A stretch of 64,000 bases of DNA. Origin: Lacticaseibacillus mingshuiensis. GTDB lineage: Bacteria; Bacillota; Bacilli; Lactobacillales; Lactobacillaceae. Shown in pieces: positions 7,090-59,939 of the stretch (positions within the stretch are counted from its first letter, which is position 1; every line of letters starts with the position of its first letter). The DNA lies in assembly GCF_016861785.1 (NCBI RefSeq), contig NZ_BOLS01000003.1, positions 1 through 64,000 on the forward strand. The letters are read 5' to 3'. The notes beneath the pieces are model-generated. The model worked only from the letters and a program-made list of their open reading frames with translations. It made no database searches and had not been told where the DNA came from. Position numbers and translations under genes: made by a program.

Positions 7090-7477
7090 GCGGTGCCCCA
7101 CCATCCCGCGGGCCTTCACACCCTTTTATAGTTGGGTTCCGGCGAGCAGGGGTGGACATCTAACAGTCTTGTGCACTCGAGGCGAAGGGCGCCTCAAGCA
7201 CCCCGCTACGACCCCTTTTATAGTCGGGCTGCGGTGCGCATGGTCGAGACAGCTAGGTACGCCCATCACTCGATGGCTAAGTGCGCCATCAAGTGATGGG
7301 CTAGCCTACCTGCTCGACCATAAGCGCGCACCTCCGCACCCTTGCCTTCACCCCCTGTAGTCGGGTTCCGGCCCGCATGGTGGGGTCATCTAGTCGTCCT
7401 GGTCGCCTGATGGCCAAGTGCACCATCAACCGCCCAGGCCGAACTAGCTGCCCCACCATCCCGCGGTCCTCCACCCC
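7090..7477 (-). repeat. Family B hairpin repeats: two full copies and two fragments
   Basis: Full copies lie at about 7222-7341 and 7359-7477, a truncated copy at 7130-7214 and an end fragment at 7090-7124. In the opposite sense each full copy runs from GGGTGCG to GCCCAACT. Each folds into one long imperfect hairpin: an outer stem (GGTCGAG/CTCGACC in the first, GGTGGGG/CCCCACC in the second), a middle stem (CCCATCAC/GTGATGGG in the first) and an inner stem (GATGGC/GCCATC). The stems differ between copies but remain paired. Confidence 0.85.
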
Positions 7478-7580
7478 CTGGAATCAAAAAAATGGCCGCC
7501 CTGGGTGGGGGCGACCAAAGGAGTAAGGATTGACCAGCCGCTGGGTGGGCGACTGGCGATTTTTACTTGGAGGAGTAAAA

Positions 7581-7745
7581 ATGAAAAAGTTGGGTATGGG
7601 TATGGAAACGAGTGGGTGGCTCGTTTCTATGTTTCCTATACTAAAGGCGAAATGTGAAGAAAATGTGACGAAATCGGCCAAATGTTGTGAAAGTGACGAG
7701 GTGTCGGCACAATATTTAGACAACCGTCCGCGAGACACGGACTGA
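7581..7745 (+). CDS. Possible small Cys-containing peptide, 54 aa
   Basis: ATG at 7581 follows an excellent ribosome site (TTGGAGGAGTAAAA). The product is MKKLGMGMETSGWLVSMFPI followed by a polar tail with Cys at residues 25, 35 and 36. No signal peptide or known family is recognised. The region sits between repeat copies and the next gene, and a perfect 8-bp inverted repeat (GAAACGAG/CTCGTTTC, about 7607-7629) lies inside it. It could be a real short peptide or a leftover with a chance ribosome site. Confidence 0.3.
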   Translation: MKKLGMGMETSGWLVSMFPILKAKCEENVTKSAKCCESDEVSAQYLDNRPRDTD

Positions 7746-7837
7746 CAGTGGCATTTTCGTGAGGACGCGTTATCCGAGTCGTTTCAGTTGCCTTTTTTCC
7801 CGTCCGCTTCTATGATTTGGGCAAAGGGGATGAGTCT

Positions 7838-8218
7838 ATGGAAATTCGTTTTGATGAAGGGTCGATCAAGAAGTTGACGCCGCATCTCGGCGCCGATAAA
7901 AAGTTGTTGCTGACGTTTGAAGATGGCGTCGGCCCGTATTCGCAACATGCGATGATCCACATGCAGACGCAGTTCAGCTTCAATGTGGTGCCGGCCAGTG
8001 AGGCGACGCCGGATTATGAGCAGACCGTCGACAGCAATCTTGGCCCAGTTTTGATCAAAGGCTACTCGCAAGAAGATCTCGACCCGCACATGGTGGTGCA
8101 TTTCCACCCGACCACTGACACGATGGCGCTGAACGGGGATGGCGGGGAGATCGATGGCAACCTCGGTTTCATCGATTTTACTGAACCCAACGGCATCCGC
8201 GACAACCCGGCGCGCTGA
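7838..8218 (+). CDS. Iron-sulfur biosynthesis-fold (HesB/YqkB-like) protein without cysteines
   Basis: A 126-aa protein starting MEIRFDEGSIKKLTPHL with the layout of the small HesB/IscA-like family common in lactobacilli (annotated there as iron-sulfur cluster biosynthesis family proteins). The start has AAAGGGGATGAGTCT in front. No cysteine is present, so it lacks the cluster-binding residues of true A-type carriers and its role is open. Standalone gene with its own terminator. Confidence 0.6.
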   Translation: MEIRFDEGSIKKLTPHLGADKKLLLTFEDGVGPYSQHAMIHMQTQFSFNVVPASEATPDYEQTVDSNLGPVLIKGYSQEDLDPHMVVHFHPTTDTMALNGDGGEIDGNLGFIDFTEPNGIRDNPAR

Positions 8219-8277
8219 GGCGAGGCACGGCGGTCGAAAGGACACACGCACCGAAAACACAATTGAATATAACGCAT

Positions 8278-8318
8278 GACCGGTGACTTGTTGTGAAAAT
8301 AGTCACCGGTCTTTTGTT
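8278..8318 (+). terminator. Intrinsic terminator
   Basis: Stem GACCGGTGAC/GTCACCGGTC followed by TTTTGTT, about 60 bp after the preceding stop. Confidence 0.85.
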
Positions 8319-8430
8319 GTCCCGTGGCGTTCTCGGCGCAAAATGAAATGTTATGAAAACACACTATCAGAAACGCCGCGAGTGGTGTAAAATCATCGTG
8401 ACATAAGAAGTAACGGTGGAGGAATGTATT

Positions 8431-8853
8431 TTGCGGTATATGTTTGAATCGGCGCTGACAATTCATGAAATCAAGGCCCTGTATGGTTCGGTGGGCTGGG
8501 ACAAGTATTTGGTCGACGTTGGCGAAACCGCCCGCGGCATCGCCAACTCAACGCTGCTGACGGCGCGCGATGACGAGGGCAAGCTGGTCGGCATGGTGCG
8601 CGGCGTGTCCGACATGCACACAATTGTTTTCATCCAGGACCTGATCGTCTTGCCTGAGTACCAGCACCAGGGCATCGGCGAGCAATTGCTCCAACAATTC
8701 GATGATTATTTCAAGCAGGTCGCCCGCATCGTAGTGGTCTGCGGGGACGAGCCCCTCACCGGTTTTTATCAACGCGCGGGATTTGACCAGGCAGAAAATG
8801 CGCAGGCGACCACGTTCATTCGCCCACGCAAGCTGCTCGAGCCACGGTATTAG
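8431..8853 (+). CDS. GNAT-family N-acetyltransferase
   Basis: A 140-aa GNAT protein. Motif A is visible as DLIVLPEYQHQGIGEQLLQQ (acetyl-CoA pyrophosphate loop Q-x-x-G-I-G), followed by a final strand region with GDEPLTGFYQRAGF. TTG at 8431 is the most likely start because GGAGG lies 8 nt upstream; the earlier GTG overlaps that site and the ATG at 8440 is too far. Such small acetyltransferases modify amines on metabolites, antibiotics or proteins; the substrate cannot be deduced. It is followed at 49 nt by a small hypothetical gene. Confidence 0.8.
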   Translation: MRYMFESALTIHEIKALYGSVGWDKYLVDVGETARGIANSTLLTARDDEGKLVGMVRGVSDMHTIVFIQDLIVLPEYQHQGIGEQLLQQFDDYFKQVARIVVVCGDEPLTGFYQRAGFDQAENAQATTFIRPRKLLEPRY

Positions 8854-8902
8854 ACGCAAACGGCGACTCGCGCAGGCGACTCGCTATTTTTTTGGGGGAA
8901 AA

Positions 8903-9199
8903 ATGATGGCAGAAGAACAAATGGTCAGCCGCATGCAAAAAGCGGAAGGCGCGGATACGATCATGGATCAGGGGTATATCACGGAGCGTGAGGAGCCCGC
9001 GATGATGGACAAAAAATGGTGCAAGCTGTTCGAGGCGCAGATCAACGACGAATTGCGCCTGCGCACCCTTGCCCAGCGCGTGGTGTTGAAGAAGTTCAAC
9101 TATTACATGGGTGAAGGCCGCATCATCTACGACCCGAGCCGCCTGACCGAAGGCGACGCCAAGCAAACGTGCCAGGTTGCATTGGGGTATCACAAGTAA
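8903..9199 (+). CDS. Hypothetical protein, 98 aa
   Basis: Starts MMAEEQMVSRMQKAEGADTI with GGGGG just before the ATG. Soluble, mixed-charge, with conserved-looking DKKWCKLFEAQINDELRLRT and a C-terminal VALGYHK. No domain recognised. It follows the GNAT gene closely and a terminator ends the unit, so the two are probably cotranscribed. Confidence 0.6.
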   Translation: MMAEEQMVSRMQKAEGADTIMDQGYITEREEPAMMDKKWCKLFEAQINDELRLRTLAQRVVLKKFNYYMGEGRIIYDPSRLTEGDAKQTCQVALGYHK

Positions 9200-9233
9200 C
9201 TATAATAGGAAGAAAATTTTGTCTGTAAGATGA

Positions 9234-9270
9234 AAAAAGCTGCCGGGACCCGCGTCCTGACAGCTTTTTG
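9234..9270. terminator. Bidirectional terminator
   Basis: AAAAAAGCTG...CAGCTTTTT with an inner GGGAC..GTCC pairing, between converging genes at 9199 and 9272. Confidence 0.8.
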
Positions 9271-9271
9271 C

Positions 9272-10294
9272 TTATGAGGCGAATGGCCCGGTCAATACGA
9301 TCTTGCCGGCTTGATGGCCTGCCTCACTGCGGGCCGTTGCGTCGCGCAGACTTTCTAGAGTGCGCGTGTCGTAATGGCGGGTGACACTTGCGTTGAGCTT
9401 GCCAGTCCCCGCAAGCTCGGCGATGCGCGTCAGAATTTTTCCCTGGCTGGTTATTTCCCAGGAAAAGTCGCTCTTGGTGAACATGTATTCGAGGTCAAAA
9501 CTGGCAGCCTTGTCCTTCAACAGCGCGACTGGCAACGGGCGGTCAGGGGTGACGATGGTCGCAATGTGGCCAAACGGCGCGACCAATTTGCAGGCAAGCT
9601 CAAAATATGGCGCCGGGGCATACAAAATCGTAACGCCATCGACCTGCTGGATGTTGTTTTCGGCCAGCGCGGTTTCAAGGTTGCTGTGATAATCCAGCGC
9701 AAGCGCGACGCCATGTGCGATCAGCCAGTCATGGTTGACTGGGCTGGCCGTCGCGATCACCGTCAACCCGGCCCAGTTTGCCAATTGCGTCAGAAGCGAC
9801 CCAACGCCGCCTGCCCCGTTGATCACCAGAAGCGTCTTGCCAACGTTGGCGTCTGCTTCGGGGATGAAGCCCATTTTTTCAAACAGCAGCTCCCACGCAG
9901 TCAGGCTGACCAGGGGCAGTGCCGCGGCGTCTGCATCGCTCAGCGCGCTTGGAGCCTTCGCGACCAGTCGGCTGTCGATCAGCTGTTGTTCCTGATAACT
10001 GCCGGCGCGGCGAGTGGTGCCGGCATACAGGACGCGGTCCCCGATGGCAAAATCGAGCACCTCTGCGCCGCGTGCGATCACCGTTCCCACTGCGTCATAG
10101 CCGACGATCTGTGGGGTCGTTGTCGCCGGCGCATTTTGCCGCCGTTTTGTATCGACTGGATTGATCGAAAAACCAGCGACTTGCACCAGTAGGTCATGCG
10201 GCTGTGGCTGTTCATCCGGCACCGTGATGAGTTGCAGGCTTGCCGGATCGCTCAACGGCAGGCCCTGATAAAAGCCAAATGCGTGATGTGACAT
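9272..10294 (-). CDS. Medium-chain (zinc-type) alcohol dehydrogenase-like oxidoreductase
   Basis: A 340-aa MDR-superfamily protein of the quinone-oxidoreductase/ZADH branch. The N-terminal GroES-like domain starts MSHHAFGFYQGLPL and the Rossmann nucleotide loop reads VINGAGGVGSLLTQLANWAG. The catalytic zinc cysteines of classic ADHs are not evident, as expected for NADPH:quinone reductase-like members. It probably reduces quinones or reactive aldehydes/enones with NAD(P)H. Strong ribosome site (AAAGGAGGCGCCTT). Monocistronic. Confidence 0.85.
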   Translation of the reverse strand: MSHHAFGFYQGLPLSDPASLQLITVPDEQPQPHDLLVQVAGFSINPVDTKRRQNAPATTTPQIVGYDAVGTVIARGAEVLDFAIGDRVLYAGTTRRAGSYQEQQLIDSRLVAKAPSALSDADAAALPLVSLTAWELLFEKMGFIPEADANVGKTLLVINGAGGVGSLLTQLANWAGLTVIATASPVNHDWLIAHGVALALDYHSNLETALAENNIQQVDGVTILYAPAPYFELACKLVAPFGHIATIVTPDRPLPVALLKDKAASFDLEYMFTKSDFSWEITSQGKILTRIAELAGTGKLNASVTRHYDTRTLESLRDATARSEAGHQAGKIVLTGPFAS

Positions 10295-10374
10295 AAGGCG
10301 CCTCCTTTGTTTGTATGCCTAGTGTAAATCTTGTGCGCTTTTTGGTAAACTATGGAGAGAAAAGAGGGTCGATC

Positions 10375-10818
10375 ATGGCAGAAAACGAAAAAGTTGAGCC
10401 GGCGCAGGCCGCCGCTCAGGAACCGGTCGAGGCACAACCAAGCAAGTCAACGCGCAGCGATTCTCACGTGAAGCGCAGTGATCACCGCACCGTGATCACC
10501 GTCGTCTTGGTGATTGTGCTGGCCGCATTATTTTCCGGCTACGGCTGGTTCGTGTATCATCCAGATGATCTGTTTGCGATGGCGAGCGTCATTTGCTTTG
10601 GCATCGGGTTAGCAGTTGGACTGTGGCTGTTAGCTTGGCTGGACGGGAACGCTCATTCACGCTTCGGCCGTTTTTGCCTCGACTTTTTCTTCGGGGCTGC
10701 ATTGATCGCCTTCATCTGGATCTTTTTGCTGGGGCTGACCTTCTACTTTGAATTTTTCATGGTCGCGCTGGGCGTCCTCCTGATTCTGAGTGCGCTGTTC
10801 ACACTGCGCAAGATCTAA
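10375..10818 (+). CDS. Hypothetical membrane protein, 147 aa
   Basis: A hydrophilic N-terminal 40 residues (MAENEKVEPAQAAAQEPVEA..., Ala/Glu/Pro-rich) precede four likely membrane helices with Trp/Phe-rich segments (YGWFVYHPDDLFAMASV, CLDFFFGAALIAFIWIFLLG). No domain is recognised. The start ATG follows AAAGAGGG. A short terminator follows. Function unknown. Confidence 0.6.
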   Translation: MAENEKVEPAQAAAQEPVEAQPSKSTRSDSHVKRSDHRTVITVVLVIVLAALFSGYGWFVYHPDDLFAMASVICFGIGLAVGLWLLAWLDGNAHSRFGRFCLDFFFGAALIAFIWIFLLGLTFYFEFFMVALGVLLILSALFTLRKI

Positions 10819-11194: not shown

Positions 11195-13070
11195 TCAACT
11201 ACGCCCCGAAGTATCTGGCAGAAAGTAATGTGATGGCGTCACACTGATGTGGCCCGCACGCCCCCAAAATTGGTAGTCCCGGAGATCACGCCATTGAGGA
11301 GACGACAGATCTTCTGGTCCACTGGTCTGCGAATTTTCATGCTCCAGAATATCTGACAGAAAATAATGTGATGGCGTCACACCGATGTGGCCGCCCGGGG
11401 CTCGGTTTCCGTGATCTCTGAGATCGGAAACTTCAATAATCCAGTCCAGAAGAAGCAAGTTGGCAATCTTAGAGATCGGCCATTGCGAAGATGACAGTTA
11501 TTACGGTCCACTGGTCCGCGAATTGCACGCCCAAATAATCTGGCAGAAAGTAATGTGATGGCATCACACCGATGTGACCCGTTGCCCGCGACACTTTGTT
11601 TCCGCAATCTCTGAGATCGGAAACTTCAATAGTCCAGTCCAGAAACAGTAAATTGGCAATCTCAGAGATCGTACGGTGGCCAAGATCACAGATTTCTCGA
11701 TCCACTGGTCCGCGAATACTCACGCCCCAATGTATCAGGTTGAAAGTTTTGTGATGACGTCACACCGATGTGGCCCGTGGCTCGCGGGCTTTGTTCCCGC
11801 AATCTCTGAGATCGGAAATTTCAATAATCCAGCCCAGAAGAAGCAAATTGGTAATCTCAGAGATTACACGGTGGCCAAGATTACAGAAATCGCGGTCCGT
11901 TGGTTCGTGAATAGTCACGTCCCCAGATATCTGACTGAAAATAATGTGATGGCATCACACCAAATGTTGTCCGCACGCCCCGAGCGCCGTGATATCGAAT
12001 CCATTTCCCGAAATCAGAGACTCACAAGCATATCGGTGTTTACTTGAGCACAACTCCCTCACGCGCATTCTATGACATTTTCGCGGCCAATCGACCGACT
12101 TCAATTCGAAATCGACCTTCTAGCGCGAATCTCAGGCTCTTAACCGGCCGTTAGAAACCGCGGTGGATCAACGTTTCTTCGAATCTCAACGGTGTCACTT
12201 GAGACTAGAAAAATCTCCAGTCATAGAAATGCCGTTAATTCAACGTTTTAAAAGTCGAGACTTGATCTCTGATCGACGCTGTTTGACTCACCAAATAAAC
12301 GACGCATTTTGGCAATAAGAGCAGGGCCGCGTTCAAAAGTAATGTGACCGGGTCACACCAGTTTGTGGTATCACACCGCGGCCCCAAGCATCTGGCAGAA
12401 AGTAATGTGATGGCGTCACGCCAATGTGACCCGTTGTCCCGGGGCGCTTTGTTTCCGTGATCTCTGAGATCGGAAACTTCAATAATCCAGTCCAGAAGCA
12501 GTAAATTGGCAATATCAGAGATCGCGTCATTGCGGAGATGACAGTTCTTTCGGTCCACTGGTCCGCGAATAGGCACGCTCCTAAAAATTTGGCAGAAAGT
12601 AATGTGATGGCGTCACACTGATGTGGCCCGTTGCCCGCGGTACTTTGTTTCCGCGATCTCTGAGATCAAAAACTTCAATAATCCAGTCCAGAAACAGTAA
12701 ATTGGCAATCTCAGAGATCGCGCTATTGCGAAGATGACAGTTCTTTCGGTCCACTGGTCCGCGAATAGTCACGCTCTCAAAAATTTGGCAGAAAGTAATG
12801 TGATGGCGTCACACTGATGTGGCCCGTCGCCCGGGGGCTGCTCTGTTTCCGCAATCTCTGAGATCGGTAATTTCAATAATCCAGCCTATAAGAAGCAAAT
12901 TGGCAATCTCAGAGATCGCACGATTGTCCAAGATCACAGGGGTTCCGGTCCACGGGTCCGCAAATTTACCTTTTTTGATTTGAAAAGACAACATACGCGG
13001 TCCACGGGTCCACCAAGGTTCCGCTCCCGGCTGACATCAACTCGGATCGATGTGATGGCGTCACACAACT
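11195..13070. repeat. Family A repeat array, left cluster (units of about 195-252 bp)
   Basis: About ten palindromes of the form TGTGATGGCGTCACA occur at 11229, 11367, 11554, 11750, 11945, 12343, 12406, 12603, 12799 and 13051, mostly 187-199 bp apart. Between them each unit carries GATCTCTGAGATCGGAAA, then about 45 bp later TTGGCAATCTCAGAGATCGC (the two are inverted repeats), and then the direct repeat GGTCCACTGGTCCGCGAAT. The last unit is a longer 252-bp form identical in layout to the right cluster. Minus-strand ORFs here repeat the same peptide, have no ribosome sites and are not called as genes. No transposase is visible. Confidence 0.85.
11990..12330 (+). repeat. Unique segment shared, inverted, with the right cluster
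   Basis: This non-repetitive stretch within the left array (for example CTTCTAGCGCGAATCTCAGG near 12117) is present in diverged form, in opposite orientation, at about 45540-45840. No ORF with a ribosome site is seen in either copy. It may be the body of a decayed element whose ends are the palindromic units. Confidence 0.6.
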
Positions 13071-15428: not shown

Positions 15429-15600
15429 GGGTGCGTAGCGCGGCGTCCAGATCTGGGCAACTAGTTCGGCCGAGGCGCGTATGGCGCACTCAGCCATACG
15501 GGACTTGGTCGACTAGATGTCCCAGACCTGCCGCGCGAAGCCCAACTTGATTCAGGGTGCGCAGGCCCGCGGGATGGCCGGACCGACTACATGTTCCACC
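15429..15600 (+). repeat. Family B hairpin repeat: one full copy and one fragment
   Basis: Full copy 15429-15547, from GGGTGCG to CCCAACT. Its inner stem is GTATGGC/GCCATAC, different from all other copies yet fully paired. A truncated second copy starts at 15555 (GGGTGCGCAGGCCCGCGGGATGG) and fades by about 15600. Confidence 0.8.
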
Positions 15601-15726
15601 CCTGCTCGGCGCTGTCCAAATGTGTCACTTGACGCGCGAATCACTGCCTCTGGTTCGCAAACGGCCCCGATTTTCCAAAAAAACGCATCCATTTCCCGCA
15701 AAATCGCGATTTGTCGCGGGTAATCG

Positions 15727-16503: not shown

Positions 16504-16619
16504 AGTTGGGTTCCGCCGAGCAGAGACGAGGCATCTAAGCCAGTAGCCACTCGAGGCGAAGTGCGCCTCAAGCGTCTACTGGACTTAGCTGCTCGTCTCT
16601 GAACGCTCGGCGTCACACC
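16504..16619 (-). repeat. Family B hairpin repeat, full copy
   Basis: Opposite orientation, AGTTGGG to CACACCC. Outer stem GAGACGAG/CTCGTCTC, middle stem AGTAG/CTACT, inner stem GAGGCG/CGCCTC. A short remnant (TTGTCACACCC) precedes it. Confidence 0.85.
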
Positions 16620-17564
16620 CTACAGTTGTTGCACAAGCACCATTACTACGGGAATCACTGCCATTGCGGCGAGGGTTGTGGTTGTGACGGTGATGGCGGC
16701 TGTGTTGGCGTCGGCGCCGTAGAGTTTGGCGACGACCGGGGCGTTGGTCATGACCGGCATTGCGGATTGCAGGATGAAGACTTGCTTCATCAAAAGCGGC
16801 ATCGGCGTCCAGGCCACTAGCAGAAACATGACCAGCGGGGCGAAAAGAAAGCGGCCGGAAAAGATGCCAAGCATTTCCTTGTCAAAGCGGATATTCGCCA
16901 GCCCGGCTTGATGCATCGCGATGCCGATGAAAAACATGGAGCCGGGGATGGTCAATCCGCCGATGTAATTCAGGTCGGACATCAGAAATTGCGGCAGGCG
17001 AACGCGCGCCAGCACAAGCAGGACCCCCACGATGAATCCCAGAAGCGGTGGCGAGAAAATTTTGCCCAGCACTGTTTTCAAAGAGAGGGACGCATTGTGC
17101 GGGCCGTCTGCCTGAATCAGGTAGACGCCGACGGTCCAGAAGATCGTGGTGTTGGCCATGTAATAGACCAGCACGTATGGCAGGCTCTTGGCGCCAAACA
17201 GCGCGAGGTTCACGGGCAGGCCGATGAAGACGGTGTTCGAGTTGAAAAACATGGACTTGAACAGGCCGCGGCGTCCGACCGGCACGGCCAGGGCGCGGCA
17301 AACGCCAAAGGAGAGGCCAAACAAGATCGCCATGGACAGCACCGGAAAACGCAGATCCGGAAGCAGGCGCATGAGCTGACCCGCTGAGAATTTTTCATCA
17401 ATGGTGACGATCATGTAGGCGGGCAGGGAGACTTGGGTGACGACTTTGGCGATGATGCGGCTGGAGCGGTCGTCGAACCAGCCGCGCGCTGTGAGAAAAT
17501 AGCCGAGTGCGATCAAGATCAGAATCTCGCAGACGCCGAACAAACTGGAGAGAAAAACGGTCAA
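16620..17564 (-). CDS. AEC-family transporter (auxin efflux carrier/malate permease type)
   Basis: A 314-aa, ten-helix secondary carrier of the AEC family, with the internal pattern of two five-helix halves and typical segments such as VFIGLPVNLALFGA and QSAMPVMTNAPVVAKLYGAD. Family members move organic acids (malate, malonate) or related anions in lactic acid bacteria. No ATG is available; TTG at 17564 follows GGAAGTAGG at a workable distance. The flavin reductase gene ends 16 bp upstream on the same strand, suggesting cotranscription. Confidence 0.85.
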   Translation of the reverse strand: MTVFLSSLFGVCEILILIALGYFLTARGWFDDRSSRIIAKVVTQVSLPAYMIVTIDEKFSAGQLMRLLPDLRFPVLSMAILFGLSFGVCRALAVPVGRRGLFKSMFFNSNTVFIGLPVNLALFGAKSLPYVLVYYMANTTIFWTVGVYLIQADGPHNASLSLKTVLGKIFSPPLLGFIVGVLLVLARVRLPQFLMSDLNYIGGLTIPGSMFFIGIAMHQAGLANIRFDKEMLGIFSGRFLFAPLVMFLLVAWTPMPLLMKQVFILQSAMPVMTNAPVVAKLYGADANTAAITVTTTTLAAMAVIPVVMVLVQQL

Positions 17565-26052: not shown

Positions 26053-26325
26053 ACGGTGCAGCGCACGGCGTCTGGGGCTGATCGGCTAACTTGGGCCTGG
26101 CGCTTGGGGCGCCAGCCCCGAGCGACGGGACCGGTTAGCCGACTCAGCCCCGCTGTGCGCAGCCCAAGTAAACGGTGCGGAGGCTCGCGTTTAGGTCTGA
26201 GCAGCTAGTTCAGTCCAGGCGCTTGGTGGCGCACTTCGCCTCGAGTGACGGTTCCAGTTAGCTGTCGCCCCCCTGCGAGCCGCAGCCCAAGTAGACGGTG
26301 CGGAGGCTCGCGCCCAGCTCTGATT
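26053..26325 (+). repeat. Family B hairpin repeats: two full copies and a fragment
   Basis: Copies 26053-26169 and 26172-26292 with ends ACGGTGCGG and CCCAAGT, slightly different from the usual GGGTGCG/CCCAACT. The first has inner stem GGGGC/GCCCC and an outer stem GGGGCTGA/TCAGCCCC. A third start (26295-26325) is cut short before the GH2 gene. Confidence 0.8.
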
Positions 26326-28159: not shown

Positions 28160-28275
28160 AGTGTCGTGGGCCAAATGTCCGGGTCCGAGCAGCTAAGGTT
28201 CCAATCACCTGGTCCAAAGTTCGGACCTGGCGCTTGGAACACTTACCTGCCGGACCCAAAAGCGACATTTGTCCC
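28160..28275 (+). repeat. Possible divergent family B element
   Basis: Contains the family B core words GAGCAGCTAAGG and CCTGGCGCTTGG and an outer pairing (GTGGGCCAAATGTC with GACATTTGTCCCAC), but the inner stem and the usual ends are changed. The rest of the gap to 28440 shows only short GC-rich pieces. Confidence 0.4.
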
Positions 28276-31621: not shown

Positions 31622-32023
31622 ATGTTCAGCGAAAGCAAAGCACTTGTCAACAAGTTGGTCGAAACGGCCAGCGCATCTAGTCACGATTTTAATGAGATGA
31701 TCAAAGACGACCCAGATCTGTTGATCAAATTGGCGGTGGTCCATGTGATTCCCGTCGGCTTGTCCATTGTCGGTGCCGTTGCGATCATCCGCGGTCATCA
31801 GCGCCTGCGCATCGAAAAGGAGCGCACCCGCCAAGTCCGGCTGCGCGCGATGCTCGATGCGCACAAGGAACCGGGTCATCCGGGTTGCGGCCACCCAGGC
31901 TGCAAGCACGGCGAAGGCGAAGGCGGGCATCACGGCCATCATGGACACCACGGTCATCATGACCACGATCACGGTCCGGCCATGATCCCGCTGGAAGGAA
32001 GAAAAGGACTGCCAACGGATTAG
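31622..32023 (+). CDS. Membrane protein with His-rich metal-binding tail
   Basis: A 133-aa protein: soluble N-terminal 38 residues, one membrane helix (AVVHVIPVGLSIVGAVAII), a basic linker (RIEKERTRQVRLRA) and a C-terminal tail with two CGHPGC-like Cys/His units and a run of His-Gly (HHGHHGHHGHHDHDHG), typical of Ni, Zn or Co binding. Start 31622 with GCAGGAGGCGATGTC. It faces the cation P-type ATPase gene, so a link to cation handling is plausible. Confidence 0.7.
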   Translation: MFSESKALVNKLVETASASSHDFNEMIKDDPDLLIKLAVVHVIPVGLSIVGAVAIIRGHQRLRIEKERTRQVRLRAMLDAHKEPGHPGCGHPGCKHGEGEGGHHGHHGHHGHHDHDHGPAMIPLEGRKGLPTD

Positions 32024-32163
32024 GGTGCGAAGGCCCGCGGGATGGTCGAGTAGCTAGTTTGGTTTGGGCGCTTGAGGCGGACTTTGCCTCGAGTGACCGA
32101 GACAACTAGATACCTCGACCATGCGGGCCGAAGCCCAACTGAAAAAGGGTGCGGAACCCAACT
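32023..32163 (+). repeat. Family B hairpin repeat: one full copy and a short remnant
   Basis: Copy 32023-32140 begins at the stop codon of the His-rich gene. Outer stem GATGGTCGAG/CTCGACCATG, inner stem GAGGC/GCCTC. The remnant GGGTGCGGAACCCAACT (32147-32163) is a copy with the whole hairpin deleted, ends only. Confidence 0.85.
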
Positions 32164-32187
32164 CACAAACGATTGAGATAAAACAAA

Positions 32188-36102: not shown

Positions 36103-36120
36103 GCGCAGATTTTTTGTTAG

Positions 36121-36271
36121 GCTGCCCCACCATCCCGCGGACATACGCACCGTAGTCGGGCTTCGCGGGGCAGGGGTGAGGCGTCTAACTGGAACCGTCA
36201 CTCGAGGCGAAGTGCGCCTCAAGGCCAGTCCCAAGTTAGCCGCTCACCCCTGAGCGCCCCGCTACGCATCC
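36121..36271 (-). repeat. Family B hairpin repeat: one full copy and a fragment
   Basis: Full copy 36154-36271 (AGTCGGG to GCTACGCATCC) with outer stem GGGGCAGGGGTGAG/CTCACCCCTGAGCGCCCC and inner stem GAGGCG/CGCCTC. The fragment 36121-36152 is the end of another copy, with its hairpin missing. Confidence 0.85.
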
Positions 36272-40033: not shown

Positions 40034-40077
40034 GAGGCCGAACTGCTCAGACCTGAGCGCCCCGCGCCGCACCCTTT
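40034..40077 (-). repeat. Family B repeat fragment
   Basis: GAACTGCTCAGACCTGAGCG and CGCCCCGCGCCGCACCC are the right end of a family B copy; the rest is missing. It lies just upstream of the T-box promoter. Confidence 0.6.
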
Positions 40078-43940: not shown

Positions 43941-44154
43941 CCAACCACAGGTACGGGATTCGTGCATGACACTCAGAGCCCCGTATTGCTGTCTACCAAA
44001 TAGTGTCAAAGGAGGTCATTCGCTTTTCGGCTTGCATAGCGGGGCTGGCACAACGTTAAGTGTCGGCGCCAATTACAGGCCACGCGCGTCAAGCCGCGCA
44101 AATAGGCACCCCAGTGAAAATTGCTGGGGTGCTTTTTGCGCCCCAAGGTTTGCG

Positions 44155-45320
44155 ACGAAAAATAATGTGATGGCGTCACACTGATCTGGTGGTGTGCAGC
44201 TGGGTTCTCGGTTGCTGTGATCTCCGAGATCGGAAATGTCGAGAATCGTGCCCTTCAAATGTAAATTGGCAATCTCAGAGATTGCACGAGGCCACTAGCA
44301 TCTGATCGTCCGGTCCCCGGGTCCGCGAATTTACCGTTTTTGCTCTGAAAAGACAACATCCGCGGTCCCAGGGTCCGAAAGACAAGTCACTTCCCCAGAT
44401 AGCCGACGGAAAATAATGTGATGGCGTGACACTGATCTGGTGGTGTGCAGCTGGGTTCTCGGTTGCTGTGATCTCTGAGATCGGAAATATCGAGAATCGT
44501 GCCCATTAACAATAAATTGGCAATCTCAGAGATCGCACGAGGCCACTAGCATCTGATCATCCGGTCCCCGGGTCCGCGAATTTACCGTTTTTGATCTGAA
44601 AAGACAACATCCGCGGTCCCAGAGTCCGAAAGACAAGTCACGCCCCAGATAGCCGACGGAAAATAATGTGATGGCGTGACACTGATCTGGTGGTGTGCAG
44701 CTGGGTTCTTGGTTGCTGTGATCTCTGAGATCGGAAATATCGAGAATCGTGCCCATTAACAATAAATTGGCAATCTCAGAGATCGCACGAGGCCACTAGC
44801 ATCTGATCATCCGGTCCCCGGGTCCGCGAATTTACCGTTTTTGATCTGAAAAGACAACATCCGCGGTCCCCGGGTCCGAAAGACAAGTCACTTTCCCAGA
44901 TAGCCGACGGAAAATAATGTGATGGCGTGACACTGATCTGGTGGTGTGTAGCTGGGCCTTGGTTGTCGCGATCTCCGAGATCGGAAATGTCGAGAATCGT
45001 GCCCTTCAAATGTAAATTGGCAATCTCAGAGATTGCACGATGCCACTAGCATCTGATCATCCGGTCCCCGGGTCCGCGAATTTACCGTTTTTGATCTGAA
45101 AAGACAACATCCGCGGTCCCCGGGTCCGAAAGACAAGTCACTTCCCCAGATAGCCGACGGAAAATAATGTGATGGCGTGACACTGATCTGGTGGTGCGCC
45201 CCTGGGGTTCTCGGTTGCTGTGATCTCTGAGATCGGAAATATCGAGTTTCTTGCCCCTTCAAATGTAAATTGCCAATCTCGGAGATTGCACGATGTCGAT
45301 ACCATCAGATTTTCCGTCTT
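44155..45320. repeat. Family A tandem array, right cluster (five units of 250-251 bp)
   Basis: Palindromes TGTGATGGCGTCACA or TGTGATGGCGTGACA lie at 44166, 44417, 44667, 44918 and 45168, spaced 251, 250, 251 and 250 bp. Units are over 90 percent alike by eye. Order in a unit: palindrome, GTGATCTCTGAGATCGGAAA, AATTGGCAATCTCAGAGATC, CCGGTCCCCGGGTCCGCGAA, TTTACCGTTTTTGATCTGAA, CCGCGGTCCCAGGGTCCGAA. Compared with the left cluster each unit has an extra 54 bp with a second GGTCC pair. Short minus ORFs inside are repeat artefacts. Confidence 0.9.
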
Positions 45321-45489: not shown

Positions 45490-45990
45490 TGGTGGAATGG
45501 TGTCACGCCATCACATTAGTTTCATTGGCTCGCCCGCGGACTGTGGTTGTTACCAGAAATGATCAGTCTATACGTTGCGCTAAACTGCCAGAATCGGCAA
45601 TCAAGTCTCGGTCGGCAAAACGTTGAAATAAAGGCGTTCCTATGGTCGAGAATTTTCTACGAGTCCGGATTATTCAAGCAGATTGCGGAAAACGCTGATA
45701 GACCGCAGTTTCTAACGCCCAGTCAAGCGCCTGAGATTCGCGCTAGAAGGTCGATTTCGCGTTGAATTCGATGGAATGGTCGTGAAATTGTCATAGAATG
45801 TGCGTGAGAGGGTTGTGCCCAAACAATTTCCGAAAACTGGTTGTTGCTCTGATCTTTAGGCACAATCCTGGTATCAAGAAGAAGATTGCGTGGTTCTGAC
45901 GCTGATTGGTGTGACGCCATCACATTAGTTTCTACCCCAGCGGGCGGCGGGGGCCCAAAGGCAAAACTAATGTGATGGCATCACACCCAG
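45490..45990 (-). repeat. Right cluster tail with inverted family A elements and shared unique segment
   Basis: Inverted palindromes at 45501 (TGTCACGCCATCACA) and 45910 (TGTGACGCCATCACA), and a direct one at 45971. The stretch 45540-45840 is the diverged reverse complement of 11990-12330, for example CCTGAGATTCGCGCTAGAAG near 45730. No gene is seen. Confidence 0.65.
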
Positions 45991-46011
45991 CCGACCCACA
46001 CGCCCCGCAAA

Positions 46012-51353: not shown

Positions 51354-51910
51354 GGGTGCGGAGACCCGCGGGATGGTGGAACAGCTAGGTCAGCTCCTGT
51401 GCTTGATGGCGCACTTGGCCATCGAGTGCAGGAGATGCCTAGATGTTTCCGCCATGCGGGTCGAAGCCCAACTGTGAGGGTGCGGAGCGGGGCGCATAGG
51501 TCTGAGCAGCTAGGCTAGCCTGGCGCTTGGGGCGCTCTTAGCCCCGAGTGACTGGCGTACCTAGATGTCTCAGACCTGCCCCGCGGAGCCCAACTGTGAG
51601 GGTGCGGAGCGGGCCGTTCAGGGCTGGGCAGTTAGCTTGGCCCTGGCGCTTGATGGTGCACTATGCCATCGAATGCCGGGGACAGCTAAATGTCCCAGCC
51701 CTGGCCCGCGATGCCCAACTATGTGAGGGTGCGGAAGCTCGCGGGATGGCCGGTCGGCTAGTTTGGCTTGGGTGCTTGATGGCGTATTTGGCCATCGAGT
51801 GCCCGAGCCAACAAGACGACCCGGCCATGCGAACTGCAGCCCAACTATGTGAGGGTGCGGAAGCTCGCGGGATACTGGACCAATTAGACGAGCCTCAACT
51901 TCGAGCCCAA
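51354..51910 (+). repeat. Family B hairpin repeats: tandem array of four full copies and one truncated
   Basis: Copies 51354-51473, 51478-51595, 51600-51720, 51727-51846 and a truncated one 51853-51910, spaced 122-127 bp, all in the same orientation. Inner stems: GATGGC/GCCATC, GGGGC/GCCCC, GATGG/CCATC, GATGGC/GCCATC. Outer stems are different in each copy (for example AGGTCTGAG/CTCAGACCT in copy two, AGGGCTGG/CCAGCCCT in copy three), yet each is paired. The rest of the gap to 52134 is AT-rich and shows nothing but the next terminator. Confidence 0.9.
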
Positions 51911-54415: not shown

Positions 54416-55051
54416 ATGGTAGAAGTTGTTGTTTTACAACATGCGGATAATTGTGGGCCAGGCTTTGTCGCGGATTGGGCGGCGGCGCATGACGTGACGC
54501 TCAAGGTGCTGAGGCCAGATCTTGGGGAAAATCTGATGCCGCTTCGGGCCAGCGAGTTGAACGGTCTGATCATCTTGGGCGGGCCGCAAAGTGTCAATGA
54601 TGATCTGCCGTGGCTGTCGTCCGAGCGAATCTTGGTGCGGAGCCTGGATCAGCGCAACCGGCCGGTGTTTGGCATCTGCCTTGGTGCCCAGCAGATCGCG
54701 CGGGCGTTTGCGGCGGGGGTCGGCCCGCTGACGTATCCACAATATGGGCGCACCATGGTGACGAATACGCCGACTGGCGCGACGTTGCCAGTCTTTGAGG
54801 CGCATACGGAAGGAATCACCGCCTTTCCGGGGATGACGCAGACTTATTCGGATGAGCTTGGTGCGGTGCAGGGCTTCAAGTATCATCGGCATTTGGCGGC
54901 GGTCCAGTTTCATCCAGAGCTGGACGTGGCGGCGTTTCAGACCATCGCCAACGAAGAAGGCTTTGCGTCGGCCCCGGTCTTGACGGAAGCGGAAGTGGCC
55001 GCCAACAAGCAACTCCTCTTCAACGAACTGGACGCCTGCTTCGCATTTTAA
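54416..55051 (+). CDS. Class I glutamine amidotransferase-like protein
   Basis: A 211-aa GATase1 domain: Cys88 in FGICLGAQQIA, His166/Glu168 in QFHPE, and GGPQSVNDDLPW. No synthetase domain is fused or adjacent, so it may act as a free amidotransferase, a peptidase-like member or a gamma-glutamyl hydrolase-type protein. Its ATG follows directly on the TAA of the PARG-like gene and the ribosome site AAGGAGG is inside that gene, so expression is tightly tied. Confidence 0.85.
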   Translation: MVEVVVLQHADNCGPGFVADWAAAHDVTLKVLRPDLGENLMPLRASELNGLIILGGPQSVNDDLPWLSSERILVRSLDQRNRPVFGICLGAQQIARAFAAGVGPLTYPQYGRTMVTNTPTGATLPVFEAHTEGITAFPGMTQTYSDELGAVQGFKYHRHLAAVQFHPELDVAAFQTIANEEGFASAPVLTEAEVAANKQLLFNELDACFAF

Positions 55052-55053: not shown

Positions 55054-55230
55054 GGGTGCGAAGGGCCGCGGGATGGCGGAACAGCTAACTTGGGCCTGGC
55101 GCTTGGGGCTGCTTTTAGCCCCGAGTGACAGGCACAGTTAGATGTTTCCGTCATGCGGCCCGGAGCCCGACTAAGACAGGGTGCGAAGGCCGCGGGATGG
55201 CGGAACAGCCTAAGCCCGCGGTGCGCTTCC
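55054..55230 (+). repeat. Family B hairpin repeat: one full copy and a truncated copy
   Basis: Full copy 55054-55172 with inner stem GGGGCT/AGCCCC and outer stem ATGGCGGAAC/TTTCCGTCAT. The second copy (55179-55230) keeps the left arm only. Confidence 0.8.
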
Positions 55231-56417: not shown

Positions 56418-56810
56418 TCAGTCTTTATCGGCTGAGGCGATGATCAAACCGGCTGTAAAGGACGCGATCAAGTTTTTCTTGGAAGGCGTCAGCGGCTGAT
56501 CGTTATAGGTCAACACGGTGGTATCGCTGAGCAGATCCTCGACGCGAATGACGGTGCTGCCTTCAAGAACGACCTTCTTTTCTTCGGCAGGTGCGTACTT
56601 GTCTGGAAAAGCAACGGCCAAGATCTCTAGCGGTTCCGTGTTGTAGTATTCTGCAAGTTTACGAATACTGCGTTCACTTGGCACCGTTTGATCGTTTTCC
56701 CACTTGGTAAAGCTTGCTGGAGAGGTGTGCGTTGCCTTTGCGACGGTGACGATCGACTCGCCGCGATTCTTGCGGATCCGGCGGAGGGTGCTTCCTACTG
56801 TTTCTGTCAT
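56418..56810 (-). CDS. XRE-family helix-turn-helix regulator
   Basis: A 130-aa protein with an N-terminal HTH_XRE domain (about 5-60: GSTLRRIRKNRGESIVTVAK, SPASFTKWENDQTVPSERSI, RKLAEYYNTEPLEIL) and a C-terminal part of about 65 residues with no known domain. ATG 56810 follows GGTGAG; a longer frame upstream lacks a ribosome site. Likely a stand-alone regulator. Confidence 0.85.
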   Translation of the reverse strand: MTETVGSTLRRIRKNRGESIVTVAKATHTSPASFTKWENDQTVPSERSIRKLAEYYNTEPLEILAVAFPDKYAPAEEKKVVLEGSTVIRVEDLLSDTTVLTYNDQPLTPSKKNLIASFTAGLIIASADKD

Positions 56811-57124
56811 GTGTCTCACCACGTTTCTATAAGTTAGAGGGGACGGACAGGCGCCCCGCATCATTGATTAATGTAACTGTATTTAATGTAAAATGCAACG
56901 AAAACGCTCGTTGTTATCACTTTTTTTATTTACGTATCTTGACACTTGTTATTAACGCGCGTGCAATCGTTTGCTTTGCCTCTCGGACGTAGCTGATACC
57001 GGGAACCGGTGGATGGAATTGCGGCGGAAACGGCAAGAATGGCAATTATTTTTTACGGCTGAAGGACAGGGGGGTGGGGAGTGACTTTGGGACTCATTGC
57101 GCCGCAAGCCCTGGCCCGATATAG
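56811..57124. other. Gap without visible genes
   Basis: Upstream region of the XRE gene with AT-rich stretches around 56870-56950, including TTGACA (56939-56944). No ORF with a ribosome site is seen. Confidence 0.3.
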
Positions 57125-57400
57125 TTGTTCCACCATCCCACGGGCCTTCGCACCCTGTCGAGTTGGGCTACACGGGGCAGGGGTGAGACAGGTAGTCGTC
57201 CCGGCCGCTCGATGGCCAAGGGCGCCATCAATCGTCCAGGCCGCCCTACCTGCTCACCCCTGAACGCCCCGCTTCGCACCGTAGTTGGGCTACGCGGGGC
57301 AGGGGGTGGCGCATCTAGGCCATCAGGCGCCCGAGGCAAAGAACGCCTCACGCGCCTGATGGACCTAGCTGTCCACCCCTGAACGCCCCGCTTCGCACCC
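57125..57400 (-). repeat. Family B hairpin repeats: two full copies and a fragment
   Basis: Copies 57162-57280 and 57283-57400, opposite orientation, plus end fragment 57125-57156. The second has a long middle stem (CCATCAGGCGC/GCGCCTGATGG) and the first an inner stem GATGGC/GCCATC. Both lie ahead of the USP gene. Confidence 0.85.
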
Positions 57401-57469
57401 TGTCTTTTTCTTGTTTTTCGCGGCTGGCTGGCGTAGGCTTATTGGTATAGAAGACAAGGAAGTGATCAT

Positions 57470-57925
57470 ATGGATCAGGAGTATACCACGATCTTGGTTC
57501 CCGTTGATGGCTCTGATGAGTCAGATCTGGCTTTCCATAAAGCGGTCAAGGTCGCAACGACGAACCACGCGCATCTCGATATTCTGAACGTCCTGGACAC
57601 CAAGCAGTTTGTCGGTGGCTATGGCGGCATGATCTCCGGTGACGCGATCTACCAGCTGACGCAGGATGCTGAAAAGTACCTGGACGGGCTGGCGGAGCGG
57701 GCCAAAAAAGCCGGGTTGGACGATGTTGCGATCCATATTCGTTTCGGCAATCCGAAGACGGTCATCGCAACGGATTTTCCGCATGACCATCACACCGACT
57801 TGATCATGATCGGCGCCACTGGCTTAAATGCCGTGGAGCGCGTGCTGGTCGGATCTGTCACCGAGTATGTCAATCGCACAGCGCCTTGCGATGTGTTGAT
57901 CGTCAAGACAAAGACAAACGACTAG
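57470..57925 (+). CDS. Universal stress protein (UspA family)
   Basis: A 151-aa USP domain with TILVPVDGSDESDLAFHKAV at the N-terminus and the complete ATP-binding motif G-x2-G-x9-G-S/T in MIGATGLNAVERVLVGSVTEYV. ACAAGGAAGTGATCAT precedes the ATG. Unlike the copy at 28441 it keeps the standard ATP loop. Stress-induced in relatives. Confidence 0.9.
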   Translation: MDQEYTTILVPVDGSDESDLAFHKAVKVATTNHAHLDILNVLDTKQFVGGYGGMISGDAIYQLTQDAEKYLDGLAERAKKAGLDDVAIHIRFGNPKTVIATDFPHDHHTDLIMIGATGLNAVERVLVGSVTEYVNRTAPCDVLIVKTKTND

Positions 57926-58040
57926 GCAATTGTTGAGCCGTGGGGTGACCCGCGGTTCTTTTTTTCGCCAATTCGCGTCATTGATAGTAAGCTGAACGAA
58001 ACGACACGCGACTCGTATTTTTCAATAAGGAGGAATCGGC

Positions 58041-58592
58041 ATGGCACAATATTGGTATGACCGCGACCCTGTCTTGCGCGCGTATCACGATAATGAGTGG
58101 GGCAAGCCGCACCACGAGGATCAGGGATTGTTTGAATTAATGTCTTTAGAGATTCTGCAAGCTGGGTTAAACTGGCAGTTGGTGCTGAAAAAGCGGGCGG
58201 CGTTCAATGCGACTTTCCACCGCTTCGACCCAAGTGCAGTGGCCGTCATGACGGAGGCTGAGCTCGATGCGGCGATGCAAGATCAGGCGCTGATTCGCAA
58301 TCGGCGAAAATTGAATGCAATTGTCCAAAATGCGCAGGCGACCTTGCGCATCCAGCAAGAATTTGGCAGCCTCGACACTTATCTGTGGGGCTTTGTGAAT
58401 CACCAACCGCTTGTTCATGCACCGGCGACGCAAGCGGACGTGCCAAGTGCCAGCGATGAATCGCGGGCGTTGGCCAAAGATATGAAACAGCGCGGCTTTT
58501 CGTTCATCGGGCCCGTCACTGCCTACAGCTATATGCAGGGCGCGGGGCTGATCGATGACCATCTCCGGGGGGAGGCGCGCGGTAAGGAGTAG
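58041..58592 (+). CDS. DNA-3-methyladenine glycosylase I-like (Tag) protein
   Basis: Tag removes 3-methyladenine from DNA. The 183-aa product has the family core YHDNEWGKPHHEDQGLFELM, LEILQAGLNWQLVLKKR and GFSFIGPVTAYSYMQGAGLIDDHL. The catalytic Glu/Trp region is kept. In E. coli Tag a zinc is bound by Cys4, His17, His175 and Cys179; here the N-terminus is MAQYWYD and the end IDDHLRGEARGKE, so both cysteines are absent. The EamA transporter follows after 4 bp. AAGGAGGAATCGGC precedes the ATG. Confidence 0.9.
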   Translation: MAQYWYDRDPVLRAYHDNEWGKPHHEDQGLFELMSLEILQAGLNWQLVLKKRAAFNATFHRFDPSAVAVMTEAELDAAMQDQALIRNRRKLNAIVQNAQATLRIQQEFGSLDTYLWGFVNHQPLVHAPATQADVPSASDESRALAKDMKQRGFSFIGPVTAYSYMQGAGLIDDHLRGEARGKE

Positions 58593-58596
58593 GGAT

Positions 58597-59508
58597 ATGA
58601 AGCATCAACGCGAGCTGGGCATTGGCCTTGCGACATTTGGCTCATTGCTGTGGGGTGTTTCCGGCCCAGCCAGTGAACATATTTTTGGGTATGGGGTGTC
58701 GGTCTCTTGGTTGATCAGCTCAAAAATGCTGATGGCGGGGGTCGTCACGATGATCTTGGCCCTTTTGATCGATAAACGGCATGTGCTGGATCCGTGGCGG
58801 ACCAAAAAAGATGCGATTCAGATGATTATTTTCATCATCTTCGGCATGGTCACGATGCAGTACATCTATTTCAAGGCGGTCGAGGTGGCCAATGCTGCGA
58901 CCGCGACGATTCTGCAGTACCTGGCGCCGGTCTTGATCATGGTGATCATGGCGATCCGGTCCCGGTCGTTGCCCCGGCGCATCGATGTGGTCGTCATCGC
59001 GATGGCGCTTTTTGGCACGGCGCTGGTGGTGACCAAGGGCCATTTTACGCAGCTGGCGATCTCGCCGCGTGCCTTTTTCTGGGGCATCATGGCCGCGTGG
59101 GCGGCGGTGGCTTATAACATGTTACCGGAAGGCCTGCTGGCGCGGCATTCCCCGCTGACGGTGACGGCCTGGGCACAATTGTTGGGCGGCATCGGCATGA
59201 CGATCTATCATCCATTTTGGGTCGGCATCCCGCATATGCCAGCGGATGGCTGGTGGAGCTACGCGTTCATCGTGGTATTCGGGACGATCGTGGCGTATCT
59301 GGTCTATTTAGCCAGCCTGCAATATATTTCCGCCGAGGCGGCCAGCTTGCTCGATGCGTTTGAGCCGCTTGGGGCAACGGTGGTGGCGGTGACGCTGCTT
59401 CATTTGCACATGGGCCCGGCGGAGTTGGCAGGCGGGGCGATCATCATCGCGACGGTTGCGCTGATGGTGATCACCACGCCAAAAGCGCCGCAACTGAAAG
59501 AAAACTGA
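58597..59508 (+). CDS. EamA-family (DMT) transporter
   Basis: A 303-aa ten-helix drug/metabolite transporter with two EamA halves: GLATFGSLLWGVSGPASEHI at the start, AVEVANAATATILQYLAPVL closing the first half, and QYISAEAASLLDAFEPLGAT in the second. Such proteins export amino acids or metabolites. ATG 58597 follows TAAGGAGTAGGGAT. Cotranscribed with the Tag-like gene; a terminator follows. Confidence 0.88.
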   Translation: MKHQRELGIGLATFGSLLWGVSGPASEHIFGYGVSVSWLISSKMLMAGVVTMILALLIDKRHVLDPWRTKKDAIQMIIFIIFGMVTMQYIYFKAVEVANAATATILQYLAPVLIMVIMAIRSRSLPRRIDVVVIAMALFGTALVVTKGHFTQLAISPRAFFWGIMAAWAAVAYNMLPEGLLARHSPLTVTAWAQLLGGIGMTIYHPFWVGIPHMPADGWWSYAFIVVFGTIVAYLVYLASLQYISAEAASLLDAFEPLGATVVAVTLLHLHMGPAELAGGAIIIATVALMVITTPKAPQLKEN

Positions 59509-59514
59509 GGACAC

Positions 59515-59566
59515 AAAAGACGTCGCAAACCGGCTACGGAAAGCCAAGTTCGCGACGCCTTTTTCA
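59515..59566. terminator. Terminator of the Tag/EamA unit
   Basis: AAGACGTCGC...GCGACGCCTTTTT stem with a 25-nt loop; A-rich on the other side, so it may also serve the small minus-strand gene. Confidence 0.75.
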
Positions 59567-59592
59567 TCGCGCGGTGCGTTTCTTCTATTATA

Positions 59593-59775
59593 TTAGCGTT
59601 TCTGGCAATGCGCGTGAACAGTCATCAGATTTGGCAGCCGGACCTGGTGCTGGTCGGCTCGCAGGGCTAGGATATAGCCGTTTTTGACGCGCAACTTGTA
59701 CGTGATGTGCGATTGGAGCCGCAGCGGGTTGCCTTCTGCATCGACGACTGGCAAAACAGTTTGACGTGCTGGCAT
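59593..59775 (-). CDS. Small hypothetical protein, 60 aa
   Basis: MPARQTVLPVVDAEGNPLRL starts behind GAGGAGGCGAGCATC. Basic, beta-rich (HITYKLRVKNGYILALRADQ) with C-terminal HAHCQKR. Family not recognised. Confidence 0.5.
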   Translation of the reverse strand: MPARQTVLPVVDAEGNPLRLQSHITYKLRVKNGYILALRADQHQVRLPNLMTVHAHCQKR

Positions 59776-59816
59776 GATGCTCGCCTCCTCACGTCTATTA
59801 TAGCGATTTTTGGTGA

Positions 59817-59939
59817 GGGTGCGTAGCGGGGCGTTCGGTCTGAGCAGGTAGTTCGGCCGAGACGATTGATGGCGCACTTGGCCATCGAGCGGCTGGGTCG
59901 ACTTAGCTGCCCACCCTAAAACACCCAGCTCGACACCCT
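59817..59939. repeat. Family B hairpin repeat, chimeric copy
   Basis: Left half is a normal forward copy (GGGTGCG, outer GGTCTGAG, inner GATGGC/GCCATC), but the right end reads as the end of a reverse copy (CCACCCTAAAACACCCAGCT). It may have arisen by recombination between opposing copies. Confidence 0.7.

Follow-up and report, generated by a model that had tools for sequence, protein, structure and literature searches.

The first 64,000 nucleotides of Lacticaseibacillus mingshuiensis contig NZ_BOLS01000003.1, hereafter the window, carry between their genes many copies of a hairpin repeat of about 118 nt. An earlier note, made from the letters of the window, described them as a suggested mobile unit whose pairing is kept while its sequence varies. 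Are such repeats spread as units, and is it their fold that matters? The same shape, written with different letters in many relatives, points to some factor that reads the fold and promotes its spread.

Fold and conservation of the repeat

The window comes from a 2.76 Mb genome (56 contigs) of a Lacticaseibacillus near L. yichunensis. L. yichunensis (Bacillota, Bacilli, Lactobacillales, Lactobacillaceae), whose strain 33-1 has a P-type ATPase 98% identical to that found here, was taken as comparison species. Iterated nhmmer searches, folds and alignment identify in the window 15 end-to-end copies of the repeat, along with one diverged copy and roughly 8 pieces that are fragments or scars. The earlier count of at least 16 near-complete copies and about 10 fragments is thus right within counting rules. 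An own-genome set, consisting of the window and 40 further stretches picked for dense copies (851,483 bases, 31% of the genome), yielded 184 nhmmer matches, 157 of them end to end; in L. yichunensis, 216 matches were found in 1,136,892 bases, 187 of them end to end. Among 1320 first-look candidates from the own genome, all 150 that were scored match the first covariance model (R1), the weakest with an E-value of 1.5e-9. The hairpin repeat family described earlier is confirmed as real.

Each unit is one long imperfect stem of about 118 nt. From the outside inwards, it consists of a 4-bp outer stem, a 3x3 internal loop (GNA/GNA), a 7-bp stem, a bulge of 3-5 nt on the 5' side, ending mostly with TTA, TCA or GGA, and a longer stem with a conserved CTA..TAG step, closed by a loop that usually contains CUU. 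In the genome alignment, positions 7, 9 and 111, 113 (G..A opposite G..A) show little variation and positions 8 and 112 are free; positions 7-9/111-113 are the GNA/GNA internal loop. Internal loops of this kind form sheared G.A pairs. Loop columns 60-62 and 65 differ in 24-55% of 99 near-identical unit pairs, as if free or fast-mutating.

That pairing is kept while sequence varies is strongly supported, both within the genome and across 27 genomes of the genus, and the inner and outer stem variants quoted in the earlier note are visible in folds and alignment. When 98 genome copies were aligned to R1, an alignment which is fitted to the structure derived from window copies and thus favours that structure, standard pairs made up 96.7% of cells and two-sided changes occurred in 33 of 43 pairs. 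None of 500 shuffles reached these values; with partners slid by 1-3 columns, pairing is only 31-39%. The cross-species alignment comprises three window copies and 25 copies from other genomes of the genus, each genome being represented once (mean column identity 58%). Its structure was computed from the same rows that tested it; two-sided changes are present in 25 of 27 pairs and 89.0% of cells are paired, as against 35-45% with slid partners. Four of five measures lie above all 500 shuffles, and the number of double-change pairs is reached by 2 of 500. RNAalifold predicts 31 pairs from 28 rows, which represent 26 other genomes and two window copies; double changes are seen in 28 of these pairs. 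Features kept across the genus are the short 5' bulge, the GNA/GNA loop, the CUU-containing loop (in most copies) and a G.U pair behind the bulge, which is present in 27 of 28 copies.

Wobble pairs are strand-specific: on the element strand, the first 106 copies of the alignment contain 330 G.U against 55 A.C, and 85 against 53 if pairs with more than 10% wobble are left out (37 pairs, p = 0.008, cells not being independent). Because of the G.U excess and the conserved G.U pair, one strand, the element strand, is probably the one that folds. The earlier note had proposed a hairpin in RNA or a cruciform. The hairpin stands, but a two-sided cruciform is disfavoured by the wobble bias.

The ends, previously described as constant, are nearly but not strictly so. 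GGGTGCG also occurs as GGGTGTG or GGATGCG, and GCCCAACT also occurs as RCCCRACT or GCTCAACT; in these variants, outer pairs change in compensating fashion. The right end GCCCAACT is found 9 times in the window versus 2.1 times expected, which none of 100 shuffles reached. GGGTGCG alone is a weak signal (21 versus 14.2 expected; reached by 3 of 100 shuffles).

The repeat is widespread among relatives. R1 matches 28 of 30 genomes of the genus, own genome included, and in a one-contig genome of 2.99 Mb (G019), all 150 scored candidates match. Searches at the level of family, order and phylum were done with a second model, R2, built from 28 copies. Since these used stricter filters, with at most 23, 17 and 11 candidates scored per genome, respectively, the genome counts are minimum values; both models give approximate E-values. 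R2 matches at least 73 of 151 family genomes, in 22 of 40 genera (E <= 1e-4), and at least 19 of 198 order genomes (1e-6), of which 7 are from the own family and the rest belong to five other families. It also matches at least 1 of 36 genomes in the family of genome G278. Among 299 Bacillota genomes, with at most 11 candidates scored in each, at least 4 match at 1e-5, namely the own genome and three others of the same class, and no match was found outside the class.

We inspected folds of 17 loci from the family search (3 of the own genus) and of 24 copies from the order search (21 outside the family). Outer motifs and tandem arrangement recur in them, as does the bulge in most, e.g. GGGTGTGAG..GAACCCGACTA in genome G342. 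In the three same-class genomes outside the order, scores are lower (35-50 bits), with 4 to 10 matches each, some of them in tandem. Common to the three best copies from there are the bulge GUUCA/GUUUA and a loop that contains CUnUUUGC or UCUUUGC, while the right end GGAGCU occurs in two of the three genomes; these matches are probable, not proven, relatives of the hairpin family. The hairpin fold is old. At the gathering score, Rfam gives no match in the window, in 20 genus loci from other species or in 15 loci from other families; at E up to 1, chance-level microRNA matches alone were obtained (E 0.24 and 0.49, in 651 bases).

Arrays and exchange of units

Further, we examined how units are arranged. 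Matches below 28 bits, which resemble a related hairpin family (family C, see below), were excluded from context, linker and unit analyses. Neighbours less than 40 nt apart are all oriented head to tail: 87 of 87 in the own genome, 72 of 72 in the L. yichunensis stretches examined first and 31 of 31 in G019. The 84 full-unit arrays of the own genome consist of one unit (39 arrays), two (29), three (8) or four (8). In 63 of these, and in 70 of 101 L. yichunensis arrays, a further left-end motif is located at most 24 nt behind the last full unit, and some of the remaining 21 arrays end in a more decayed left-end motif. Outside full units, the 851 kb contain 38 left-end versus 8 right-end matches. 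No left and right ends of the same orientation are found among them 150-4000 nt apart, and therefore no longer autonomous relative was found in these 851 kb, a search made with the ends of the repeat and not with insertion sequence ends as such.

Linkers between the units are locus-specific. Within one array they are alike (3.43 versus 1.26), and they resemble the end of the 5' flank, with a mean matched suffix of 2.26 letters versus 1.23 in permuted pairs (72 of the 84 arrays have a linker; maximum of 1000 permutations 1.54). The units themselves are hardly more alike within arrays (71% identity) than between them (67%), with 69% for neighbours and 78% for next but one; arrays are therefore not simple local duplications. 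Stem classes seemed to alternate in the own genome, where 48 of 72 neighbours are unlike versus 36.4 expected (45 of 10000 permutations). We do not claim this pattern, because it is absent in L. yichunensis (51 of 84 versus 49.9, with a cruder class call).

Both flanks of 50 loci were found in L. yichunensis. Full units are present in both species at 39 of these loci, and their number differs at 21 of the 39; across the sister species, it ranges from 0 to 6 per locus. At 11 loci with a single unit and no fragment in either species, the flanks are 84-99% alike and the units are 94-95% (4 loci), 82% and 88% (2) or 61-73% (5) identical. Judged from these alignments, the locus stays and the unit changes.

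Unit bodies are shared between loci. As many as 29 unit pairs at least 93% alike sit in different arrays, and in the 22 listed pairs the likeness ends at the unit border wherever unique flank begins. Of 156 units, 71 have a counterpart with 90% identity or more at a different locus. Among the 99 pairs that reach 90% identity, 54% differ at position 8 (unrelated units 61%, different bodies of one array 35%) and 31% at position 118 (52% and 25%, respectively); at positions of the body, differences are much rarer than between unrelated units. This suggests that outer positions follow the locus, at least partly, and that the body follows a genome-wide pool.

Alleles without a full unit mostly retain the linker and a left-end piece (L076:18968, L078:15091, L078:17178, L097:8316, L120:18932), and at L127:7057 of the own genome, left and right end are joined into a scar without hairpin. 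Comparison of filled and empty sites between the two sister species gave one nearly clean case, L093:18257, which reads AAAAA-unit-AAAAGAC here versus CAAAAGAC in L. yichunensis. The idea of a mobile unit thus gains from this site, from near-identical bodies at unrelated loci and from linkers resembling target duplications, but it has to accommodate that most of the compared loci (39 of 50) hold full units in both species.

Possible explanations

With modest confidence, we regard the repeats as an old family of non-autonomous hairpin elements that are recognised as a folded single strand and are spread and exchanged as units. Most likely, a factor encoded elsewhere would recognise the folded + strand as single-stranded DNA or RNA; in our view, such recognition would account for the retention of pairing and bulges through changes of sequence. 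Units would enter A-rich intergenic sites with a short target duplication (X). Where an X-left-end junction is already present, further units would preferentially be added to it, all pointing the same way, which would give arrays of the form (X-unit)n-X-left-end. Unit bodies may be copied or exchanged between loci, and unit number would shift by gain and loss within arrays.

A more far-reaching version of this proposal is tentative. The repeats could represent an unnamed, Bacilli-wide class of structure-recognised hairpin cassettes, with a dedicated enzyme that acts on the folded single strand and inserts whole units. In this version, which to us is doubtful, the place of insertion would be the left-end junction of the given locus, in many cases immediately after a stop codon, and bodies would be drawn from a genome-wide pool. 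If true, this would be a cassette system without genes.

Several observations weigh against the reading as non-autonomous elements. Among the 50 loci of each species, L093:18257 is the single nearly clean empty site, and the terminators behind it differ too. Some near-identical pairs also have a like neighbouring left end (L089/L091), and gene conversion between dispersed copies could yield shared bodies without transposition. Linker length is variable (1 to 7 nt in 85 of 87), and the match to the 5' flank amounts to no more than 0-1 nt in 31 of 72 arrays, which differs from what a target duplication of fixed length would leave. Strand bias is modest outside the wobble-rich apical stem (85 versus 53), and left ends flush with stop codons (see below) are not predicted by this reading. 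Finally, no mobilising gene was found in surveys of 30 genomes, where Y1 transposases and reverse transcriptases are unrelated to copy number. Y1 transposases (PF01797) occur in 13 of the 30, including the own genome (3 matches) and G027 (2), and their genes are absent from copy-rich G010, G011 and G017 (104, 116 and 110 matches of 116 scored). Reverse transcriptases occur in 11 of the 30, not in G000, G011, G017 or G027. A REP-type transposase with matching ends, which the earlier note had put forward for a search, was not found, in surveys that counted Y1 genes per genome and did not extend to the linkage of individual Y1 genes with units. Taken as a whole, the earlier interpretation is partly supported: structure-keeping and signs of a mobile unit remain, while the cruciform became less likely and no REP-type transposase with matching ends was found. 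Preference for a replication strand is weak in the own genome (32 versus 54 arrays, p = 0.023, from contig skews) and none was detected in G019 (52 of 117; p = 0.27 if the terminus is placed at 1.5 Mb, and no significance with any of three further settings).

Alternatively, the hairpins might act in cis as RNA. Transcribed at gene ends, they would stabilise, process or terminate mRNA, and selection would act on the RNA fold. We consider this rather unlikely, although position relative to genes, together with the strand-specific wobble pairs, speaks in its favour. Genes were called by a simple script and arrays without a called gene on both sides were excluded; of the 81 arrays scored here and the 100 in L. 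yichunensis, none is found within a called gene. Left ends that face a gene 3' end are located -1 to 6 nt from the stop codon in 24 of 42 cases here and 26 of 46 in L. yichunensis, whereas the right-hand side is at most 6 nt from a gene 3' end in 1 of 49 and 1 of 57 cases. At 57 loci from other species, 11 left ends versus 4 right ends lie at an open-frame stop, with about 2 expected from random positions (88 of 2280). Left ends that face a gene 5' end are found at a median distance of 78 nt here and 82.5 nt in L. yichunensis. Examples of left ends flush with a stop codon are window positions 16620 and 55054, and some left ends overlap the stop codon by one base. On the contrary, the upstream gene is co-oriented in just 42 of 81 and 46 of 100 arrays, as intergenic make-up predicts; about half of the arrays are therefore antisense to their neighbour. 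Number and identity of units also change per locus between the sister species. Stop-codon hugging may reflect aimed insertion, loss of the DNA between left end and adjoining gene by deletions that stop at something needed, or, in these cases, action of the hairpin on mRNA.

Another alternative, which we regard as unlikely, is that the repeats are old relics, immobile now, and that arrays change by homologous recombination and gene conversion among copies. The many loci with full units in both species, often in differing number, would fit this, as would different bodies between similar ends at one locus and the surveys that yielded no mobilising gene. However, unused copies would be expected to lose fold and terminal motifs, yet both are kept over several families of the order, and the nearly clean insertion difference at L093:18257 is also at odds with immobility. 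Very improbable is an origin without selection on structure, by replication that copies arm onto arm across the hairpin (quasi-palindrome correction): the paired changes between copies are expected from it, but it would erase imperfections, whereas bulge, GNA/GNA loop and G.U pair have survived throughout the genus, most of the copies folded from the order's other families again show the bulge, and the window retains a mispaired chimera (26174-26292).

Compared with known systems, the element belongs to the small intergenic palindromic repeats, of which ERIC-, MITE- (miniature inverted-repeat transposable element) and EFAR-type palindromes are the closest kinds. What makes it unusual is the order-wide bulged architecture, the heavy covariation and the cassette-like arrays. 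ERIC, compared by description only, is similarly mostly intergenic or border-spanning; the present family differs from it by its head-to-tail arrays, its locus-specific linkers and a single bulged architecture throughout a Bacillota order. EFAR inserts into or replaces small target stem-loops. A role of the left-end fragment as arm of such a target stem-loop was considered and rejected, since downstream pairing is not above shuffles (46 of 63 versus 42.3; 51 of 70 versus 49.2). In integrons, the attC hairpin is flanked by RYYYAAC and GTTRRRY boxes. The right end of our repeat fits RYYYAAC, but the left end has no GTTRRRY and linkers between units are short and gene-free, so that we rejected this relationship. 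The likeness to CRISPR is one of layout only, a locus-specific short repeat (right end - linker - left end) alternating with different bodies; unlike spacers, bodies are homologous (mean identity 67% between arrays) and common to several loci.

EFAR/Efa-1 of Enterococcus faecalis resembles the present family as an intergenic palindromic repeat in a lactic acid bacterium. Efa-1 is listed in a catalogue of species-wise stem-loop repeat families (PMC2267715) as intergenic, 163 nt long, with 65 matches, 18 of them complete, and as a pair of adjacent stem-loops, whereas the present unit is a single stem. Of the lactobacilli, the table of that catalogue contains L. johnsonii alone, for which it gives a single family, genic and 231 nt long. 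EFAR, which PMC3733652 cites, was compared by description only; we take it to be the same family as Efa-1. REP (repetitive extragenic palindromic) and REPIN elements are likewise numerous intergenic palindromes, some in tandem clusters, with GT pairs kept (PMC3733652, PMC3116915, as far as these sources describe them). They are 20-40 bp long and carry a GTAG or CGTC tag at one end, in contrast to 118 nt and the ends GGGTGCG..CCCAACT here; moreover, neighbours of the present family are never in opposite orientation and the occurrence of Y1 (RAYT) genes is unrelated to that of the repeats. MITEs, for example RUP and NEMIS, are likewise short non-coding elements adjoining genes, and the linkers here, which resemble the 5' flank but vary in length, may correspond to their target duplications. 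MITEs are described as having terminal inverted repeats of 15-30 bp (PMC3733652), unlike the outer complementarity of about 4 bp found here, which is followed by the non-complementary GNA/GNA internal loop. No description of this element was found in a literature search with limited coverage of subscription journals. A shape kept for so long despite letter turnover gives a handle on how small palindromic repeats spread without obvious transposase, and on their reader protein. Arrays might be used for typing where their unit number is not the same in sister species, and they may also disturb genome assembly.

Repeats of the window

Positions of all copies are given in Table 1. The mispaired unit seems to have arisen by recombination between the two units that stand side by side in the L. 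yichunensis array.

Table 1. Units, fragments and a related hairpin in the window (Ly, L. yichunensis; LEp, label of left-end fragments)
Feature	Positions	Strand	Remarks
Internally deleted copy inside array	7130..7203	-	only nhmmer positions 45-120; fold
Full unit	7222..7341	-	
Full unit	7359..7474	-	
Full unit	15429..15547	+	94% identical to same-site Ly unit
Left-end fragment (LEp) behind unit	15554..15621	+	fold
Full unit	16504..16620	-	flush with stop codon of gene 16620-17564 (-); 65% identical to same-site Ly unit
Full unit	26055..26169	+	nhmmer
Full-length mispaired unit	26174..26292	+	5' half resembles unit 2, 3' half unit 1, of Ly array
Related hairpin of family C, not a copy	28163..28270	-	orthologous Ly site without family C hairpin
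Full unit	32023..32140	+	Ly site: one unit more
Scar-like piece	32147..32164	+	left end joined directly to right end, without hairpin; same in Ly
Left-end fragment (LEp) behind unit	36115..36153	-	inner boundary approximate
Full unit	36154..36271	-	Ly site: two units
Solitary left-end fragment	40039..40073	-	nhmmer, fold
Full unit 1 of 4-unit array	51354..51473	+	
Full unit 2 of 4-unit array	51478..51595	+	
Full unit 3 of 4-unit array	51600..51720	+	
Full unit 4 of 4-unit array	51727..51846	+	
Left-end fragment (LEp) closing 4-unit array	51853..51880	+	inner boundary approximate
Full unit	55054..55172	+	2 nt past stop codon of gene 54416-55051 (+); 95% identical to same-site Ly unit
Left-end fragment (LEp)	55179..55215	+	inner boundary approximate
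Left-end fragment (LEp)	57089..57155	-	nhmmer
Full unit	57161..57280	-	
Full unit	57283..57400	-	
Diverged copy, right end decayed	59817..59937	+	fold, nhmmer

The family C hairpin, GTGGGACAAATG..CATTTGGCCCAC with the loop GAACTTT, has the architecture of a distant relative of the main repeat. Its presence or absence differs between the species, beside terminators, in four cases: L106:573-688 (-), the window copy (-), L172:10395-10508 (+) and L172:14266-14376 (+).

The window also contains a second, tandem repeat family in two blocks, 11201-13011 (units of about 195 bp) and 44138-45316 (units of about 250 bp). Both blocks share the motifs AATGTGATGGCGTCACA and TGATCTCTGAGATCGG..AATCTCAGAGATC, and a single core is located at 45964-46011. 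Repeats at 13-857 lie within the coding region of an LPXTG-anchored surface protein.

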